Shown here: piece after piece, positions 3,070 through 13,018 of the stretch | How positions within the stretch are numbered: the first letter of the stretch is position 1 | Layout of the letters: each line of letters opens with the position of its first letter | Source: a bacterium | GTDB taxonomy: Bacteria; UBP15; UBA6099; DSWB01 | Length of the DNA stretch: 16,124 nt | Assembly (NCBI GenBank): GCA_020061125.1 | Contig: JAGUYV010000236.1 | Location: 1 to 16,124, forward strand | Reading direction: 5' to 3' | Position numbers and translations under genes: made by a program | Notes under the pieces: generated by a model | Seen by the model: the letters and a program-made list of their open reading frames with translations, nothing else | What the model was told of the DNA's origin: nothing | Database searches by the model: none

Positions 3070-6000
3070 TTATTTGATATCCGCGTGGTATTCCTGGAGG
3101 GATTTGACGCCGATGGCGCCCTTGCGCGCGGCGTTGATGCCGCGCGCCGCGGCCAGGCCCGCCGCGGTTGTGGTGAAATACGGGATTTTGTACTTGATGG
3201 CGGTCTTGCGGATATAGCTGTCGTCGTGCGCGCTTTTCTTGCCCACGGGCGTGTTGATCACAAGCTGGATGTCGCCGTTGTGCATGGCGTCCACGATGTG
3301 CGGTCTGCCTTCGTGAACCTTCTTGATGATCTCGCAATCCACGCCGTTGTCGCGGAAGTGGCGCGCGGTTCCGCCCGTGGACACAATGCGGTAGCCCGCA
3401 GCCTGCAGCTCGCGCGCCGCGGCGAGCGCCTTGTCCTTGTCCGGATCGTTCACCGTGATCAGCGCCGTGCCTTCCACGGGCGGCGTGTACCCGCTGGCCA
3501 CCTGGGCCTTGTGGAACGCCAGGGCGAACGAGTCCGCCATGCCCAGCACTTCGCCCGTGGACCGCATCTCGGGGCCGAGCACAGGGTCCACTTCCGGGAA
3601 CATAAAGAACGGGAACACGGTCTCCTTGACCCCGAAGTGCGGATACTCGCGCGGGTGCGTGTCCATGTCCTTGAGCTTTTTGCCGAGCATGATTTCCGTG
3701 GCCATGCGCGCCATGGACACGCCCGTGATTTTGGACACCAGAGGCACGGTGCGCGACGCGCGCGGGTTGGCCTCGAGAATGTAAACCTTGTCCTCGAAGA
3801 TGGCGTACTGGATGTTCATGAGGCCCACGACCTTGAGTTCGCGGGCGATGCGGCGCGAGTAATCCACGATGGTGTCCAGGTGCTTCTGGGGAATCTCCAC
3901 GGGGGGAATCACGCATGCGCTGTCTCCGGAATGGATGCCTGCCAGCTCGATGTGCTCCATGATTGATGGCACAAACACATCGTCCCCATCGGCGATGGCG
4001 TCGGCCTCACACTCAAGCGCGTCTTCGAGAAACTTGTCAATGAGCATGGGCTTGTCAGGTGTGATGACCGTGGCGGCCTCCACATACGCGCGCAGCATGG
4101 TTTCGTCGTATACGACTTCCATGCCGCGGCCGCCGAGCACATAGGACGGGCGCACCATGAGCGGATATCCGATGCGTTTCGCCACCTTGAGCGCCTGCTC
4201 CATCGAGGTTGCGGTTCCGTTCTCGGGCTGCGGGATGCCCAGTTTTTTCATGACCTTGGCGAATTGCTTGCGGTCTTCGGCCAAGTCTATGCTCTTGACG
4301 GAGGTGCCCAGAATCTTTACGCCCGCGTCCTCGAGCTCGCGCGCGATGTTCAGCGGAGTCTGGCCGCCGAACTGTACGATGACCCCCTCGGGTTTTTCCT
4401 TGTCGTAAATCGAGAGCACATCTTCCACGGTCACTGGCTCAAAGTAGAGCTTGTCCGAGGTGTCGTAGTCCGTGGACACGGTCTCCGGGTTGCAGTTGAT
4501 CATGATGGACTCGAAGCCCAGGTCGCGCAGGGTGAACGCCGCGTGCACGCAGGTATAGTCAAACTCGATGCCCTGCCCGATGCGGTTGGGTCCGCCGCCG
4601 ATGATCATGATCTTCTTGTTCGGTGACACCGCGACTTCGTCCGGCGCATTGTAGGTGGAATAGTAGTACGCCGCGTTCTCGGCGCCGCTCACGGGCACCG
4701 CGTTCCAGGCTTGCTTCACGCCCAGCTTGATGCGTCGCTTGCGGATCTTCTTTTCCGGCACTCCCAGCAGGAACGACAGATACCGGTCTGCAAACCCGTC
4801 CTTCTTGGCCCGCACCAGAAGCTCATCGGGCGGCAGGTCGCCCTTGTGCTTGAGCAGTTCTTCTTCAAGTTCCACAAGCTCCATCATCTGCTCGATGAAC
4901 CAGTGTTTTATGTGGGTGAGCTTGTGCATCTCGTCCGCGCTCATGCCCTTGCGCAGTGCTTCGTACATCAGATACTGGCGCTCGGACGAAGGCTCCACCA
5001 GCATCTTTTTGATCTCATCCAGAGGAAGCGCGTTAAAGTTCTTCGCGAAGCCCAGGCCGTAACGGCCGTTCTCCAGTGAGCGGATGGATTTGAGGAACGC
5101 TTCTTTGTAGTTCTTGCCGATGCTCATGACCTCGCCAACGGCGCGCATCTGCGTGCCGAGCTTGTCTATGGAACCGGGGAATTTCTCGAACGCCCATCGC
5201 GCGAATTTCACGACCACATAATCGCCGCTGGGGGTATATTTTTCCAGGGTGCCGTCGCGCCAGTACGGGATATCGCGCAGGTCCAGGCCGCCCGCGAGTT
5301 TCGAGGACACCAGGGCGATGGGGAAACCCGTGGCCTTGGACGCGAGCGCGGACGAGCGCGAGGTGCGCGGATTGATCTCGATGACCACCACACGGCCGGT
5401 CTTGGGGTCGTGCGCGAACTGCACATTGGTGCCGCCAATCACGCCAATGGCCTCCACGATGCGGTAGGAATAATCCTGTAGCTTTTCCTGAAGTTCCGGA
5501 GCGATGGTGAGCATGGGCGCGGTGCAGTAGCTGTCCCCCGTGTGCACGCCCATGGCGTCCACATTCTCGATGAAGCAGACCGTGATCTTGTCATTTTTAG
5601 AATCGCGCACCACTTCGAGTTCAAGCTCTTCCCAGCCGAGCACGGATTCCTCGATCAGCACCTGCCCCACCAGGCTGGCGGCCAGGCCTCGAGCCGCGAT
5701 TACGCGCAACTCCTCCACATTCCACACCAGGCCGCCGCCCGTGCCGCCCATGGTGTATGCGGGACGCACCACCACGGGATAGCCCAGAGATTCAGCGATT
5801 TTCTCCGCCCCCTCCACCGTGGTCGTGGTTTCCGAGCGCGGCATGTCTATGCCAAGCCGGGTCATGGTGTTTTTGAACTCGGTCCGGTCCTCGCCGCGCA
5901 TGATGGCGTCTTCCTTGACCCCGATGATCTCGACTCCGTACTTCTCGAGAATTCCCTTGCGGGACAGTTCCGAAGACAGGTTCAGCCCTGTCTGGCCGCC

Positions 6001-6270
6001 CAGGTTGGGCAGCAGCGCGTCCGGGCGCTCCCGGGCGATGATCTTCTCCATGGTCTCCACATTCAGCGGCTCGATGTAAGTGCGGTCGGCCATTCCCGGG
6101 TCCGTCATGATTGTGGCCGGGTTGGAGTTCACCAGCACGATTTTGTACCCGAGCTGCCGCAGCGCCTTGCACGCCTGCGTGCCCGAATAGTCGAACTCGC
6201 ACGCCTGACCGATCACGATAGGCCCGGACCCGATGATCATTACTTTGTTGATATGCTTGTGTTTTGGCAT
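3070..6270 (-). CDS. carB: Carbamoyl-phosphate synthase large subunit
   Basis: The enzyme makes carbamoyl phosphate from bicarbonate, two ATP and ammonia delivered by the small subunit CarA, feeding pyrimidine and arginine synthesis. The 1066 residues are close to the usual 1070. Two homologous ATP-grasp halves are visible. The first has IGSGPIVIGQACEFDYSG, PNLGGQTGLN, VVRPAYTMGGTGGG and IEINPRTSRSSALASKATG. The second, from about residue 553, has IGGGPNRIGQGIEFDYTC, FGGQTPLN, VRPSYVLGGRGMEV and LEANPRASRTVPLVSKITG. A helical oligomerisation segment lies between them. The last 130 or so residues form the MGS-like allosteric domain (STGGTARHF, then FTTTAAGLAAA). The start ATG (6270-6268) gives the standard N-terminus ahead of VMIIGSGPI. 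Its Shine-Dalgarno AGGAGG is 13 bases upstream, slightly far. The gene is monocistronic by promoter and terminator, and carA is not adjacent. Confidence 0.97.
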   Translation of the reverse strand: MPKHKHINKVMIIGSGPIVIGQACEFDYSGTQACKALRQLGYKIVLVNSNPATIMTDPGMADRTYIEPLNVETMEKIIARERPDALLPNLGGQTGLNLSSELSRKGILEKYGVEIIGVKEDAIMRGEDRTEFKNTMTRLGIDMPRSETTTTVEGAEKIAESLGYPVVVRPAYTMGGTGGGLVWNVEELRVIAARGLAASLVGQVLIEESVLGWEELELEVVRDSKNDKITVCFIENVDAMGVHTGDSYCTAPMLTIAPELQEKLQDYSYRIVEAIGVIGGTNVQFAHDPKTGRVVVIEINPRTSRSSALASKATGFPIALVSSKLAGGLDLRDIPYWRDGTLEKYTPSGDYVVVKFARWAFEKFPGSIDKLGTQMRAVGEVMSIGKNYKEAFLKSIRSLENGRYGLGFAKNFNALPLDEIKKMLVEPSSERQYLMYEALRKGMSADEMHKLTHIKHWFIEQMMELVELEEELLKHKGDLPPDELLVRAKKDGFADRYLSFLLGVPEKKIRKRRIKLGVKQAWNAVPVSGAENAAYYYSTYNAPDEVAVSPNKKIMIIGGGPNRIGQGIEFDYTCVHAAFTLRDLGFESIMINCNPETVSTDYDTSDKLYFEPVTVEDVLSIYDKEKPEGVIVQFGGQTPLNIARELEDAGVKILGTSVKSIDLAEDRKQFAKVMKKLGIPQPENGTATSMEQALKVAKRIGYPLMVRPSYVLGGRGMEVVYDETMLRAYVEAATVITPDKPMLIDKFLEDALECEADAIADGDDVFVPSIMEHIELAGIHSGDSACVIPPVEIPQKHLDTIVDYSRRIARELKVVGLMNIQYAIFEDKVYILEANPRASRTVPLVSKITGVSMARMATEIMLGKKLKDMDTHPREYPHFGVKETVFPFFMFPEVDPVLGPEMRSTGEVLGMADSFALAFHKAQVASGYTPPVEGTALITVNDPDKDKALAAARELQAAGYRIVSTGGTARHFRDNGVDCEIIKKVHEGRPHIVDAMHNGDIQLVINTPVGKKSAHDDSYIRKTAIKYKIPYFTTTAAGLAAARGINAARKGAIGVKSLQEYHADIK

Positions 6271-6315
6271 AATTTTTCCGTTTCCTCCTAATTCCCCCAA
6301 TTTCAGAATCGAAGG

Positions 6316-6345
6316 AGCATAACACAATCAAAGGGCAATTTTCAA
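6316..6345 (-). promoter_or_regulatory. Sigma70-type promoter of carB
   Basis: On the minus strand TTGAAA (complement of 6340-6345) and TATGCT (complement of 6316-6321) are 18 bp apart. The start would be near 6309, giving a leader of about 40 bases that includes AGGAGG before the ATG at 6270. No attenuator hairpin is apparent in so short a leader. Confidence 0.55.
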
Positions 6346-6717
6346 GCGAAGATCGAGCGAGGGAAAAACGGGCGCCCCGCACCCGGCAATTTGGCCGCAA
6401 ACAAAATCTCGCGCGAATAAAAAACAAAAACCATGCCGCGTAGCCCTGCCGCCATTGATCGCGTAGTCCGCAGGATGACGCCTTGTTCGGGTAGATGGCC
6501 TTTGCAGCGGATGAATCGGGATGTTGCACGGGAAACAGGGAAATTCAATGCAATTATGCTAATGCAAATTTCTTCCAAACAACATATTAAATTTATGCCA
6601 GCAGCTAATATCACATTGCGCATTGTGCGGCTTCTATCCTCTCCCAACTCCCGAAGAATGGGATTCGAGCCAAGCCGGCAAGCCGCCGTGGCGCGCATGC
6701 GCGGTTATGGACGGCGA

Positions 6718-6747
6718 TTGCGGAATCGTGCTAAAATTTTTGATTAT
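6718..6747 (+). promoter_or_regulatory. Weak candidate promoter of the barrel protein gene
   Basis: TTGCGG (6718-6723) and GATTAT (6742-6747) are 18 bp apart, in a locally AT-rich patch about 90 bases before the chosen start. The match is modest. A second possible -10, TAAAAT at 6732-6737, lacks a matching -35. Confidence 0.3.
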
Positions 6748-6834
6748 CGTGTGCGTCTGGAAGCGGGCCTGCGCAAGAGCGGGACGGCAGATGGTTGTAA
6801 TGTGCGCAGACTCCGGAGATTATTGAAACGCGCT

Positions 6835-9800
6835 ATGAGCCCCAGGGATTTGAGCCAAGTCGCAATAACGCCCTTCCGCGCCATCCTCGCGGTTTCCTGC
6901 CTTGCATTTCTTGTGCTGCTGGCTGCGCCAGCGAGCGCCTGGGTGCCGCCCCTGCACGATAACCGCGCGCCGGATTTCCACACGGGCAAGTGGCCGGAGC
7001 CGGAGTTCCGCCTGCCGGACCGCCCGGGCTTCAGCCTGTACGAACTTCCCCAACCCGAGACGAAATCCCAACCTGAACCTGGTGTGCAACAACCGCCGCC
7101 GCAGACGCAAAAACCCAAAGACGACGGGGACGGCTGGCAGGTGGATGTGCAGGGCTACCGCTACCTGCGCATGCGCCGTTACGGAAGCAGCGGAAACTCC
7201 ACGCGATTCGAGTCCGCCATGGGCCTGTTCGCATACGGAAGCGCATTCGAACAGGGCACGGACATGACGCTTACGGCATCGCGTGAGCGCTACGCACTCA
7301 CCGCCAGTTTCTATGAAATGCCGCGACAGGACCGCGAGATGGAGGTGGCTCTGGGCGCGGGATTGTACAATCTGCGCTTCGGCGACATCGTGCTCGCTTT
7401 CAAGGGAGGCAGCTTCACTCCCTTCTCCAAGAAAATCACGGGGTTCGAAGTTGGGTACGAGACAAAGAACACATTTTTGCAGATGTTCACCTCCCAGTCC
7501 AAAAGCCAGACCCAGACGCGCACCTTCACCGGCCGCAACATCAAGGGGCCTTACGATCTGGGCGCCAACGACCTGATCCCGGACCGGGTCACGGTCAAGC
7601 TGAACCAGACCGTTCTTGGCGGGGACGAGTACATCCTTGACGCGTTTCTGGGCGAAATCACATTTTACGAAATTCTCACCTCCAGCGATGTGATTACGGT
7701 CACCTTTGAGCAACGCCTTCGCGGGGGGTTGGACGCAGGGGGCCTGTCCGGTCTTGCCGCGGGCTTCAACGCGGGCCGCGCGCGCTACGGCGTGTCGCAT
7801 CTGGTGCAGGAGGCCAACAGCGGCGCGCAAACCGTGAAAAAGACCGTGTCCGGCGAAACCGTGGTTCCGGATGCCGACGGCGTGCTGCAGGCCGCGCACG
7901 GGTTCATCGCCCGCACCCAGGAAGCCGGGTCGGAAACCATCATCAAGTCCGTGGCCGGCCTTGACACCACGCTCGAACCGGGCGTGGATTACAACGCCGT
8001 GGACTTGAGCCAGAAAATGGCGCTCTACGCCCAGGGCAAGTTCAAGCTCAAGGCGCCTTTCGACACGAATGCGGTCTACACAATTTCCTACGCCTATTAT
8101 CCGGACGATGTGGTGCAGCGCCAGGAAAACGAATACATCAGCCACCTGAACGCCGTGTATACCCTGCAGCAGCAAACCATCTACTACGGCTCGGAAACCG
8201 TGCGCCAGTGCACGGACCAGACCTGCTCCGTGTACACGGGCCTCGTCCTGAACCGGGGCACGGACTACATCATTGAGGAATCGCAAAACAGAATCGTTCT
8301 TTATAATTACATCGCACCGGACGACCACCTGGCCATTGATTACAACTATTACCCCCTTCTCGGGGGCGTGGAATCCACGCAGTACGATCACACCGTGGAC
8401 GGATTGAGCCTGGAATACGACATGAGCCAGGCCGTAAAGGTCAAAGCGGAATTCGCGCGCAGCCAGTCCGATGTGTCCAGCAAACCCATCCAGCAACTGA
8501 ATGAAACCGTGGCGTTCGTGACCCAGGACCTGGCGTGCTCCGGCGCAGCGCTCAACGCCGGTTGCAGATTCCGCTTCAGCAACAAAGGTCTTGTGGACAA
8601 CTCCGTGGTCATGTACTTCAACGACAGGGTGACCCGCGAAAACATCCTCACGCCATACAGCGATTACATTGTTGATACGGACCAGGGCGCCGTGGAAATT
8701 CGCAAGGACATCCCCGCGGGCACCGTGGTCCTGGCGGATTACCGCTACTATCCGGACCGGCCCGAAGGGCTGGAGACCGGCAACATCTGGCAGTTCGACG
8801 GCGCATACCGGAACAGCGCCACGCAATTCGCCCTGTCCCTCAAAGGCGCGGACACCACCTTCACGCCCGTGGGCGGCGAGGCCAACATGGAAACCGCGCG
8901 CATGAACTGGAACCTCACCCACGCGCTGGGTCCGAACCTCAAAATCGGCGCGCGCGGGCTGTCCGTGGACACCGCTTCGGACCTGGAGCAGACCCACACC
9001 ACCACCCAGCAGCAGTACGCCTACGACATGGACTGGAGCCTGCCGGAGAAGAAAATCAAAATCAGCGCGGGCCTGGCCACGCGGAACCAGAGCGACGACT
9101 TCTCCCCGGCCCAGACCGACAGCAGCGAAAAGGCCACACGGTTCTCCCTGGCCGCTCCCATGCCCATGCTCAAAAACGCCACCATGGATTTCGGATTCAT
9201 GCGCCAGTCCGTGAACGACAACAAGCAGGGCGCCGCCAGCACCGCCAACACACGCCGCAACTTCGGCATCAATTGGAAACCGTCCCAGAACCTTTCCTTC
9301 AACGGCAGTTTCGACGAATCCGTTCTGGACAGCTCCGGCGGCGCGGCCGAGCCTTTCACCTCCACAACCCGCGCCAACGCCATCACCTCCACCTGGAAAC
9401 CCACGGAACTCGTCACACTGGGCGCGAAAATTGACAAGCAGTCAAAAACCGATTCGCGCCCTTCCGCCGAAGGCTCCACCATCAACAACACCCTCATCCG
9501 CCTGGACACCGCCCCTTTCGGCCGCGTGCACTTCATCGGCATCGTGCTCACCAAAAACGACCGGCCCTCCATCAACACCCCGTCAAGCTCCACACAATCC
9601 GAGAGCTTCAGCACTTCTCTGGCCGTCACACGAGCCATTGATTTCTCCCCCAGCTACATCAACACAAGCTCTTCCTATGGCTCCACTTCACAAAACGAAA
9701 ACACAAACACCACTTACAAACTCGAATACCGCCCCCCCGGAAGGCCCTACAACGCAGCGTACAGCATTGACAAAGGAGAGCGGTCCTCCATCAGCCTCAC

Positions 9801-10185
9801 CTCCAGCAGCTTTTTCAACACCGAGCGCAGCAAACTCGAACTTGGATACAACCCCAGCCCGGCCTGGGCATTCACCGCGGCGCTGGAGAATGAAACCGAG
9901 TCCTCGACCTCCGGCGTTCCGGGCAAAAACCTGGACAAACTGAATCTGCAACTGCGCCACAAGCCCGTTGACGGGCGCTCCCACTGGCTCCTGTTCAACC
10001 GCAACAATTACGGCGGCACTCAAAGCTACTCCCAGAGCACTCTGGAATTCGGACTCGATTACAAGCTCACGGACCTGTTCAGTTGGGATTTGCGTTACCG
10101 CAAATCGGACTACAGCGATAACCTTCACGCAGATTCTTCCTATGACGGCTACCTTCTCGAAAGCTCGCTTCGCATACAGTTCTAA
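6835..10185 (+). CDS. Large outer-membrane beta-barrel protein with four repeated beta modules
   Basis: This 1116-residue protein is of unknown function. A signal peptide is clear: basic start, hydrophobic core AILAVSCLAFLVLLA, cleavage after APASA at about residue 35. A Pro/Gln-rich segment follows (about 70-95). Four related beta modules end near residues 294, 424, 507 and 640. They share a GxDYI-type turn, a strand such as RIVLYNYI, and a closing strand VITVTFEQ, YTISYAYYP, LAIDYNYYP or VLADYRYYP. From about 655 the chain alternates polar and apolar residues, is rich in Ser, Thr and Asn, and ends SSLRIQF, a terminal Phe typical of BAM-inserted barrels. The only Cys in the mature protein are the pairs C459/C464 and C568/C577, probable periplasmic disulfides. 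The ATG at 6835 is chosen because it starts the signal peptide, although its ribosome site (GGAG at 6815-6818) is far. The architecture recalls large secretion or surface-assembly barrels, but no family is assigned. Confidence 0.8.
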   Translation: MSPRDLSQVAITPFRAILAVSCLAFLVLLAAPASAWVPPLHDNRAPDFHTGKWPEPEFRLPDRPGFSLYELPQPETKSQPEPGVQQPPPQTQKPKDDGDGWQVDVQGYRYLRMRRYGSSGNSTRFESAMGLFAYGSAFEQGTDMTLTASRERYALTASFYEMPRQDREMEVALGAGLYNLRFGDIVLAFKGGSFTPFSKKITGFEVGYETKNTFLQMFTSQSKSQTQTRTFTGRNIKGPYDLGANDLIPDRVTVKLNQTVLGGDEYILDAFLGEITFYEILTSSDVITVTFEQRLRGGLDAGGLSGLAAGFNAGRARYGVSHLVQEANSGAQTVKKTVSGETVVPDADGVLQAAHGFIARTQEAGSETIIKSVAGLDTTLEPGVDYNAVDLSQKMALYAQGKFKLKAPFDTNAVYTISYAYYPDDVVQRQENEYISHLNAVYTLQQQTIYYGSETVRQCTDQTCSVYTGLVLNRGTDYIIEESQNRIVLYNYIAPDDHLAIDYNYYPLLGGVESTQYDHTVDGLSLEYDMSQAVKVKAEFARSQSDVSSKPIQQLNETVAFVTQDLACSGAALNAGCRFRFSNKGLVDNSVVMYFNDRVTRENILTPYSDYIVDTDQGAVEIRKDIPAGTVVLADYRYYPDRPEGLETGNIWQFDGAYRNSATQFALSLKGADTTFTPVGGEANMETARMNWNLTHALGPNLKIGARGLSVDTASDLEQTHTTTQQQYAYDMDWSLPEKKIKISAGLATRNQSDDFSPAQTDSSEKATRFSLAAPMPMLKNATMDFGFMRQSVNDNKQGAASTANTRRNFGINWKPSQNLSFNGSFDESVLDSSGGAAEPFTSTTRANAITSTWKPTELVTLGAKIDKQSKTDSRPSAEGSTINNTLIRLDTAPFGRVHFIGIVLTKNDRPSINTPSSSTQSESFSTSLAVTRAIDFSPSYINTSSSYGSTSQNENTNTTYKLEYRPPGRPYNAAYSIDKGERSSISLTSSSFFNTERSKLELGYNPSPAWAFTAALENETESSTSGVPGKNLDKLNLQLRHKPVDGRSHWLLFNRNNYGGTQSYSQSTLEFGLDYKLTDLFSWDLRYRKSDYSDNLHADSSYDGYLLESSLRIQF

Positions 10186-10279
10186 CTGTCACTTCGGCAT
10201 TCCGCATATTAACGAGTTCTGTCATACAGGGCGGTATCTGCTTGAAAACGAAGGCTTTTTTGCGATAGATTATGGAATT

Positions 10280-10304
10280 CAAAAACCGGCATTCGCGGGT
10301 TTTG
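10280..10304 (+). terminator. Possible terminator after the barrel protein gene
   Basis: CAAAAACCG (10280-10288) and CGGGTTTTG (10296-10304) can pair over eight of nine positions around a 7-base loop, with the T run inside the 3' arm. It lies 95 bases after the stop codon. The stem is weak and the T-tract is short, so this is only a candidate. Confidence 0.3.
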
Positions 10305-10346
10305 TTCTCAAAAAGTGCGCCATTGTTCGTATTTGCGCGCAAATGT

Positions 10347-10456
10347 TGTGTATTCGAGGCCTGTGGAAATCACGAAAACAAAAATCAAGCTGCCAGCCGC
10401 AATTTTTCCACTTATCCACAATTCTGTGTGGAAAACTTTCAAATACTTGTGAATTG
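10347..10456. promoter_or_regulatory. Cluster of DnaA-box-like 9-mers
   Basis: Against the consensus TTWTNCACA: TTATCCACA at 10412-10420 (plus) and TTTTCCACA at 10435-10427 (minus) match fully. TTTTCCACT at 10404-10412 (plus) and ATTTCCACA at 10370-10362 (minus) match 8 of 9. GAATACACA at 10355-10347 and a 7-of-9 site at 10456-10448 (both minus) are weaker. The two central boxes sit in an inverted repeat with arms TTTTCCAC and GTGGAAAA. The spacing and mixed orientation fit a DnaA-binding region, either an origin or a DnaA-controlled promoter. Neighbouring genes are not typical origin genes. Confidence 0.45.
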
Positions 10457-10607
10457 CCGAACGGCAAACAGCGGGATAAAAATCTTGCATCTTGAGGTCC
10501 ATGGGATCCGGTTGCGGGCCTTCGCGGCATAATCCTGCCTTGCCACGCGCTCTCGCACTAATTAAACTATCGTGAGGCTGGAACGGCACGGATGGGGAGA
10601 AAGCCCT

Positions 10608-10796
10608 GTGTCTCTGAACGGATGCGGCGAACACGCGAATTTCAAGACGCTTCGCGCCGTGGAATGCACATGCCCGGCATGCGGCCGGCTCCACGAGCTG
10701 TTCAACGACGAGTTGGACGCTGATGCGCGTTGCGAGCAGTGCGGCGCCGCGCTTATCACAGTGGCACCATCCAGCGGCCGGCAATCCGGGGATTGA
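10608..10796 (+). CDS. Small zinc-ribbon protein
   Basis: This is a 62-residue protein beginning MSLNGCGEHANFKTL. It has two CxxC knuckles, CPAC at residues 22-25 and CEQC at 42-45, spaced as in a zinc ribbon, with an extra Cys at residue 20. The segment between them is acidic (LFNDELDADA). The GTG at 10608 is preferred because GGGGAGA (10594-10600) lies seven bases before it. Another GTG at 10572 would add 12 residues but has no ribosome site. It is followed after 122 bases by the histidine kinase gene, which has its own candidate promoter. Small zinc ribbons of this kind often act as nucleic-acid or protein-binding adaptors, but no specific role can be assigned. The reading frame could be spurious, though the paired CxxC motifs argue against that. 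Confidence 0.6.
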   Translation: MSLNGCGEHANFKTLRAVECTCPACGRLHELFNDELDADARCEQCGAALITVAPSSGRQSGD

Positions 10797-10853: not shown

Positions 10854-10918
10854 ATTCCTTACTTGCGCATCCTTTCCTGTTTTGAGAAGCGCCGCATACG
10901 GCGGATTTGGAGCGCGGC

Positions 10919-13018
10919 ATGACACAGGACAACACAACGGAAGCAGTGCGTATCGAGGAGCTTTTCAGCTCCAGATCGCATTTCCTGTCCCGGTTGCTTG
11001 ACAACATTGACGAATCCATTGTTGTGGTGGACGCCGAAGGCACGATCCTGTATTGCAACCAGACCCTGTGCAATGCGCATGGGCGTCCCGCTGAAGCCAT
11101 GCTCGGGAAATGCGCATGGGATTTCATCCCGCCCGATGTGGCCCGCGAACGCAGCCGCATAATCAAGGAATGCGTTCGCATAGGCCAGCCCATCCAGGTC
11201 GAGGACACGCGCGACGGCATCCGGTTTTTTTCCACAATGACGCCTTTGGACGGCGGCCTGGTCATGGTTTCGGCGCGAAACATCACCATACAGCACCAGG
11301 AACAGCAATCCCGCGAGGAACAGGCGCGAACCCTTGAACGCGAGGTGGCGAACAGAACCGCCGAACTCCGGGAAGCCAACAAGAAACTCACCCGTGAAAT
11401 CGAGGAACGGCAGCGCGCCGAAAACGAAATCAAGAAGGCCAGGGACTTCCTGCAAATCGTGGTGGATGAAATCCCCTATCCCCTGGCGGTCAAGGATCAC
11501 GCCTTCCGCTGGATTCTGATCAACCGCGTGATTTGCGACATGTTCGGCAGAAGCATGGACGAACTGCTCGGCAGGACCGACTATGATTTCATCCGCAAAC
11601 AGGAGGCCGATATTTTCCGCGCCATCGAAGAAGAGGTGTTCCGCACCGGGCGGCGCAACGAGAACGAGGAAGTCATCACCGAGCCGAGCGGCCGCACCCG
11701 GTGGCAGGTCACGGAAAAATCACTGATCACGGATCCGGCCGGAGAGCAGTTTCTGTTGGCCATAGCCTACGACATCACAGAGCGGCGGCAGGCGGAACAG
11801 GAATTGCGCCGGCACAGGGACCACCTCGAAGACCTGGTGCGCGAGCGAACACAGGAGTTGCGCAGAACGCATGAACAGCTCCTGCATGCGCAGAAGCTCG
11901 AAGCAGTGGGCCAACTCGCCGGGGGCATCGCGCACGAATTCAACAATCTGCTCGCGGTCATGCTCATGACTGCGGACATCCTTGCTCGAAAGGCCCCGCA
12001 ACAGAGTGCGGACCGCGTCAAGCTCGAGCGCATCATCCGCACATGCGAACGCGCCAAGGGGCTGACCTCCAAGCTCCTCGCTTTCGCCCGCAAGGAACAG
12101 CCCGATGTGCGCCCGACCCCCGTGAGCGACATTCTGGCCGATGTAACAGACATGCTCGGGAGCACCGCGCGCAAAAACATTTCCATCCGCGCGAACGACA
12201 TCAACCCGCAACTGGAAGTTGTGGCGGACGCCAATCAGATCGCGCAGGCCGTTCTGAATCTGTGCATCAACGCCTGCGACGCCATGCCGGGCGGGGGAAC
12301 CCTCGAGCTGGACGCAGCACCGCTTTGCCTGGGCGAAGACGACTGCAAGAGATTCAACGGCCTCAAGCCGGGCGAATACTGCCGCATCATAGTGCACGAC
12401 ACGGGCCGGGGAATCGATCCCCGGGTGCGCGGCAGAATCTTCGAGCCGTTTTTCACCACCAAGGAACGCGGCAAAGGCACAGGCCTTGGCTTGTCCGTAA
12501 CCATGGGCATCGTGCGCGTTCATGGCGGCGATATCATTGTGCAAAGCGAACCGGGCAAGGGAACAACCGTGGAACTGTTGCTGCCCCAGTCCGGCCAGGA
12601 AGCCCGGGCTTCGGAATCCGCTTGCGGAGACGCCATCGGATCGCCGCCGCTGACGGGAATCGTGCTGATTGTAGACGACGAGACGGAATTTCTGGACACT
12701 ATGAGAGACACCATCGAGGATCTGGGCCTGCGCGTGCTGTGCGCGGAAAATGGAGACAAAGCCATCCGCATTTTCAGAGACTGGCGTGACCGCATCAGCC
12801 TGGTTGTGCTGGACATCATGATGCCAGGCATGGAAGGCGACGAAGTCCTGGCGGCGCTGCAGCAAATCCGCGAAGATGTAAAAGTCATTCTGTGCTCCGC
12901 ATACAGCGTAGAGGGCAAAGTCACGAGCATGCTCAAAAGCGGCGCCGCGGGATACCTGCAGAAACCGTATAAATACAATGATTTAGTCAGGCTGATTGCG
13001 GAGGTTCTTCGAAAATAG
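10919..13018 (+). CDS. PAS-PAS hybrid sensor histidine kinase with C-terminal receiver domain
   Basis: This 699-residue protein has no transmembrane segment or signal peptide, so it is a cytoplasmic sensor. Order of domains: PAS 1 (about 20-122, with [19 protein letters not shown]), a charged coiled coil (about 126-175), PAS 2 (about 177-290, ending [10 protein letters not shown]), a second coiled coil, HisKA with the phospho-acceptor His339 in GGIAHEFNN, and HATPase_c. The ATPase has its N box at [10 protein letters not shown] (448-457), DTGRGI (494-499) and GKGTGLGL (518-525). A linker leads to a receiver domain (about 580-699) with acidic DDE 586-588, phospho-acceptor Asp632 in LDIMMPG, Ser660 and Lys682. 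The PAS domains probably sense a ligand, redox state or gas, but no heme or flavin residues are certain. The ATG at 10919 has GGAG six bases upstream; an in-frame TTG at 10907 is less likely. It stops at TAG. No separate output regulator is beside it. Confidence 0.93.

Follow-up and report, generated by a model that had tools for sequence, protein, structure and literature searches.

The 16,124-nucleotide stretch of bacterial DNA analysed here (the window) contains a cluster of DnaA boxes in the gap between a predicted outer-membrane-barrel gene and a small zinc-ribbon-like ORF. The part from 10362 to 10435 is probably (we would put it at about 0.6) a secondary cluster of DnaA boxes, set in a gap with a promoter-like sequence, and not the chromosomal origin, oriC. 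What was observed directly is that the boxes exist, where they lie, how rare they are and that the marks of an origin are missing. An earlier note had proposed an origin or a DnaA-controlled region. The second role is plausible: two genes running in the same direction have this rare box cluster on their upstream side. The first found no support in the skew, in the placement of dnaA, dnaN and parB, in the relatives, in DnaA-trios, which are absent, or in the density of the boxes, which is exceeded at two other sites.

Boxes were scored against the consensus TTWTNCACA, an exact box counting 2 and a one-mismatch box counting 1. Two exact boxes face each other: TTATCCACA at 10412-10420 on the plus strand and TTTTCCACA at 10427-10435 on the minus strand. 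They are accompanied by two boxes with one mismatch, TTTTCCACT at 10404-10412 (plus) and ATTTCCACA at 10362-10370 (minus), and by two weak boxes with two mismatches, GAATACACA at 10347-10355 and CAATTCACA at 10448-10456 (both minus). All six were found where the earlier note had placed them, within 110 bases; the consensus scan gave a further two-mismatch box at 10425 (minus). The core of the cluster, 10404-10435, reads TTTTCCACTTATCCACA-ATTCTG-TGTGGAAAA, the box at 10362-10370 being additional to it. The starts of the same-strand boxes are 8 bp apart, giving a one-base overlap; the opposed boxes are separated by 6 bp and their starts by 15 bp.

The gap, 10186-10607, extends from the stop of the barrel gene (10185) to position 10608, where the zinc-ribbon ORF probably starts. 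The AT content is 61% over 10347-10456, and the GC content is 46% over 10186-10574, compared with 59.7% for the whole window and about 60% for the genome; the description of an AT-rich, gene-free stretch in a GC-rich genome was borne out. Upstream lie carB (carbamoyl phosphate synthase large subunit; 3070-6327, minus), a conserved marker for placing the window in relatives, and the gene of the predicted barrel-like protein (6433-10185, plus; true start probably nearer 6820). The latter matched no Pfam or NCBIfam family; the seven genomes of the order each encode about five members of its own family.

Two genes are located downstream of the cluster, in the same direction: the zinc-ribbon-like CxxC ORF of 62 aa (10608-10796, plus; GTG start, GGGGAG upstream), a candidate controlled gene, and that of a PAS-PAS-histidine kinase-receiver protein (10907-13018, plus), the next candidate. 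The profile matches of the small ORF, to Zn_Ribbon_TF and LysW-like, were both below the cut-off. A sigma-70-like sequence, TTGCCA-N17-TAAACT, is found at 10540-10568 (plus; a consensus match only), about 105 bp past the last strong box, and is a candidate DnaA-controlled promoter. Three such matches occurred in the scanned region, with 0.4 expected.

The cluster is real and rare, though it is not the densest of the genome. The window holds 23 boxes that are exact or one mismatch off, against 13.8 ± 3.8 after shuffling, and one in 200 shuffles gave a count as high. The 110-bp cluster score of the gap is 6; among 5000 dinucleotide shuffles of its sequence, one reached this value. A 542-kb sample of DNA from elsewhere in the genome peaked at 4; it makes up 13% of the assembly and is a stricter test, as 339 kb of it were picked for holding an exact box. 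Exact TTWTCCACA is enriched in the 4.12-Mb assembly: 116 copies, against 42 of the reversed word. Pairs of exact boxes within 30 bp, of which about 0.1 would be expected under even scatter, number at least three (window, contig C56 and contig C499), a lower bound drawn from 100 of the 116 exact boxes. Box density elsewhere had been offered as a test in the earlier note: the 542-kb sample held nothing comparable, but the clusters on C56 and C499 (scores of 9 and 8 in 150 bp) are denser. The genome has at least three DnaA-box clusters, all of them intergenic.

The dinucleotide shuffles, the lower scores in the genome's own DNA and the enrichment of TTWTCCACA all argue against a chance or compositional pile-up of TTTTCCACA-like words without DnaA function. 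We consider such a pile-up rather unlikely, even though TTATCCACA by itself is not enriched (16 copies in the assembly and 16 of its reversed control) and the arrangement is not kept beside the homologous genes of relatives. The inverted arms TTTTCCAC and GTGGAAAA might also belong to an RNA hairpin, a terminator of the barrel gene, whose resemblance to DnaA boxes would be incidental. The 11-nt arms (10401-10411 and 10428-10438) are inverted repeats of each other with 91% complementarity and enclose 16 nt. They are AT-rich, however, the inner boxes match the consensus independently and a terminator scan made no call at the site, which leaves this explanation highly improbable.

It is distinctly unlikely that the cluster is the origin of the lineage, separated from dnaA and dnaN. 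A genuine cluster of DnaA boxes, as an oriC has, is present at 10347-10456 in a relatively AT-rich gap, and the earlier note had taken a shift from C to G on the plus strand as a further mark of an origin. Its base counts were reproduced exactly (69 C/22 G on the left; 14/20, 20/19 and 15/19 on the right). The shift is present in the bases, but it tracks the gene strand and the barrel gene; the caveat that the composition of this gene could cause it was right, the C-rich stretch being the 3' part of the gene, whose composition accounts for most of the C-richness. Skew was counted at fourfold-degenerate sites, which are insensitive to amino-acid content. In the short window no switch was found: the plus-strand values are -0.041 to the left and +0.001 to the right of the cluster, and the strandwise skew is negative for every gene of the window, on both sides. 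In the relative G003 the skew differs by about 0.22 between the two sides of the cluster near dnaA. Skew was dropped as a pointer to the origin after these counts; the window being short, the absent switch counts moderately against one.

Position relative to dnaA and dnaN, another check proposed in the earlier note, spoke against an origin as well. The cluster does not lie next to dnaA, dnaN, mnmG or parB, a proximity not strictly required in every bacterium: dnaA is on contig C200, dnaN on C49 and a ParB-like gene on C288, all off the window contig. In favour of a displaced origin, the usual neighbourhood is broken up: at the dnaA locus (L002, G000:C200, 1-2269) a DUF3866 gene and not dnaN comes next, and at the dnaN locus (L100, G000:C49, 4716-5193) there is no adjacent dnaA. 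This genome yielded no copy of the conserved gene (alignment A1) that adjoins dnaA in relatives, and its DnaA shares no more than 50% identity with the DnaA of named phyla. The genome is also fragmented: the origin was not directly located because the assembly is 79% complete, consists of 513 contigs and lacks the 5' end of dnaA. Besides the denser clusters on C56 and C499, the region upstream of dnaN weighs against the window. This long AT-rich gap with DnaA boxes contains a TTATCAACA/GTATCCACA pair 2 bp apart beside a very weak duplex and looks more origin-like than the window cluster, although its cluster score is low and the contig ends just past it.

The only parS-like site of the assembly, TGTTGCACGGGAAACA, is located at 6522-6537 of the window. 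It carries one mismatch and was not counted as placing the origin, about 0.7 such sites being expected by chance in 4.1 Mb; the perfect TGTTTCACGTGAAACA, present in four relatives, is missing here.

The basal unwinding system of bacterial oriC consists of two DnaA boxes, a short spacer and DnaA-trios (PMC8287927). The window cluster resembles it in having close boxes in AT-rich DNA, and its two-box 17-mer with the 8-bp step is shared with dnaA-linked sites of Thermus, Omnitrophota and Lachnospiraceae, which favours an origin. At the Thermus site CTA repeats resembling DnaA-trios come next; these are absent at the window cluster. Unlike oriC, the window shows neither a skew switch nor dnaA-dnaN proximity, no DnaA-trios follow any of its boxes, and an unwinding element with such trios was not found at the cluster. 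Its duplex is also more stable. The weakest 60-bp flank reaches -1.25 per step, while the values for the other eight clusters are -1.05 to -1.20, which makes it the most stable of the nine; the instability is modest, and weaker duplex is found elsewhere on the contig.

In four relatives of the order, from three genera (G001, G002, G003 and G005), DnaA clusters were found near dnaA-dnaN, and in all four carB is on a contig other than that of the dnaA-linked cluster, which again argues against an origin in the window. In G001, G002 and G005 the cluster is found upstream of a gene that diverges from dnaA, in an AT-rich gap, and dnaN follows. G003, a congener of G002, has a near-identical cluster about 11 kb away on the other side of dnaA. 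The placement of the same cluster 3 kb upstream of dnaA in G002 (C59) and 11 kb downstream in G003 (C6) (L038-L041) suggests a local rearrangement near the origin or a misassembly. In G003, dnaA has parS, two ParB genes and mnmE-mnmG-rsmG within some 13 kb, and the cumulative skew reaches its minimum in this region; the two ParB-type genes are adjacent (L038 5924-7563, G003:C6). Conservation of the cluster beside carB or the barrel homologues was ruled out: in the relatives both are located away from the dnaA-linked cluster, with nothing comparable beside them. No related locus sharing the same genes and boxes was found; therefore nothing shows that the site is under selection.

One likeness to the relatives favours an origin. 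Read on the minus strand, the main boxes TTTTCCACA, TGTGGATAA and AGTGGAAAA match the dnaA-upstream cluster of G001 in order, orientation and type. The spacings are 15 and 8 bp in the window against 26 and 19 bp in G001, each exactly 11 bp, or about one helical turn, shorter. This likeness was spotted post hoc and may be a coincidence. With dnaA and dnaN apart and several origin-like clusters in the genome (window, C56, C499 and upstream of dnaN), the window cluster might also represent a relocated or additional initiation site, or part of a distributed DnaA-control set, which we hold to be very doubtful.

As a secondary cluster, the window site is an off-origin DnaA-box cluster, an already known kind of element: it has several consensus or near-consensus boxes within about 100 bp, and its location outside oriC is inferred from the origin tests described above. 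In Bacillus subtilis eight strong DnaA regions are known, two of them in oriC and the others including sda and gcp-ydiF (PMC4447404). Escherichia coli has a compact DnaA regulon plus datA, DARS1 and DARS2 (PMC11317965, PMC12371093). Off-origin clusters bind DnaA and serve to control transcription or to limit free DnaA (PMC4447404, PMC11317965, PMC12371093). Like the B. subtilis off-origin regions, the window cluster consists of several close boxes in an intergenic gap away from dnaA, and such clusters are few per genome; unlike them, it has other flanking genes, and its box number and spacing are unmatched. With the E. coli double boxes, datA, DARS1 and DARS2, which are used for transcription or DnaA control, it shares an off-origin position in a gap. 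DnaA of E. coli prefers two boxes 2-3 bp apart (PMC11317965), whereas the starts in the window are 8 and 15 bp apart and no same-strand pair with the 2-3 bp gap is present. A deep uncultured lineage joins the bacteria having a small set of off-origin DnaA-box clusters.

By binding the overlapping and opposed boxes, DnaA would tune transcription of the zinc-ribbon and histidine-kinase genes in step with DnaA activity. Alternatively, the cluster would hold DnaA as a titration site. The presence of a dnaA gene on C200 supports these putative roles; that DnaA binds, which gene it regulates and whether it activates or represses are predictions from the DNA. Binding strength is uncertain because the box pairs 2-3 bp apart preferred in E. 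coli are absent. Among dense clusters at 80 dnaA loci from other phyla, same-strand starts are most often 12 and 11 bp apart; the affinity expected at the window cluster is lowered because neither these spacings nor the 2-3 bp gap are present.

The C56 cluster is located between guaB3 and tsaD (L103, G000:C56, 2464-2576), and the same gap was found in G001, which belongs to another family (L237, G001:C98, 10261-10326). In both gaps four boxes occupy identical relative positions (0, +12, +20 and +57). The alignment is gap-free over the boxes and the other bases have diverged; the flanking proteins are 56% (TsaD) and 64% (GuaB3) identical. These boxes form a phylogenetic footprint. As a candidate conserved DnaA control site, the guaB3-tsaD cluster outranks the window cluster, its four box positions being kept in two families. 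A major DnaA site of B. subtilis, gcp-ydiF, adjoins gcp (tsaD) (PMC4447404). The correspondence of TsaD and gcp is given by the TIGR00329 gcp_kae1 profile. The guaB gene of E. coli has been described as DnaA-repressed; ChIP-seq found no site within guaB.

The third dense cluster (L102, G000:C499, 1946-2105) is located upstream of an extracellular solute-binding protein gene. In G002, an array at about 7330-7470 of L238 (G002:C50) is built of TTTTCCACG/TGGAAAAA units repeated every 31 bp or so, and ends in the palindrome TTTTCCACACTGTGGAAAA.
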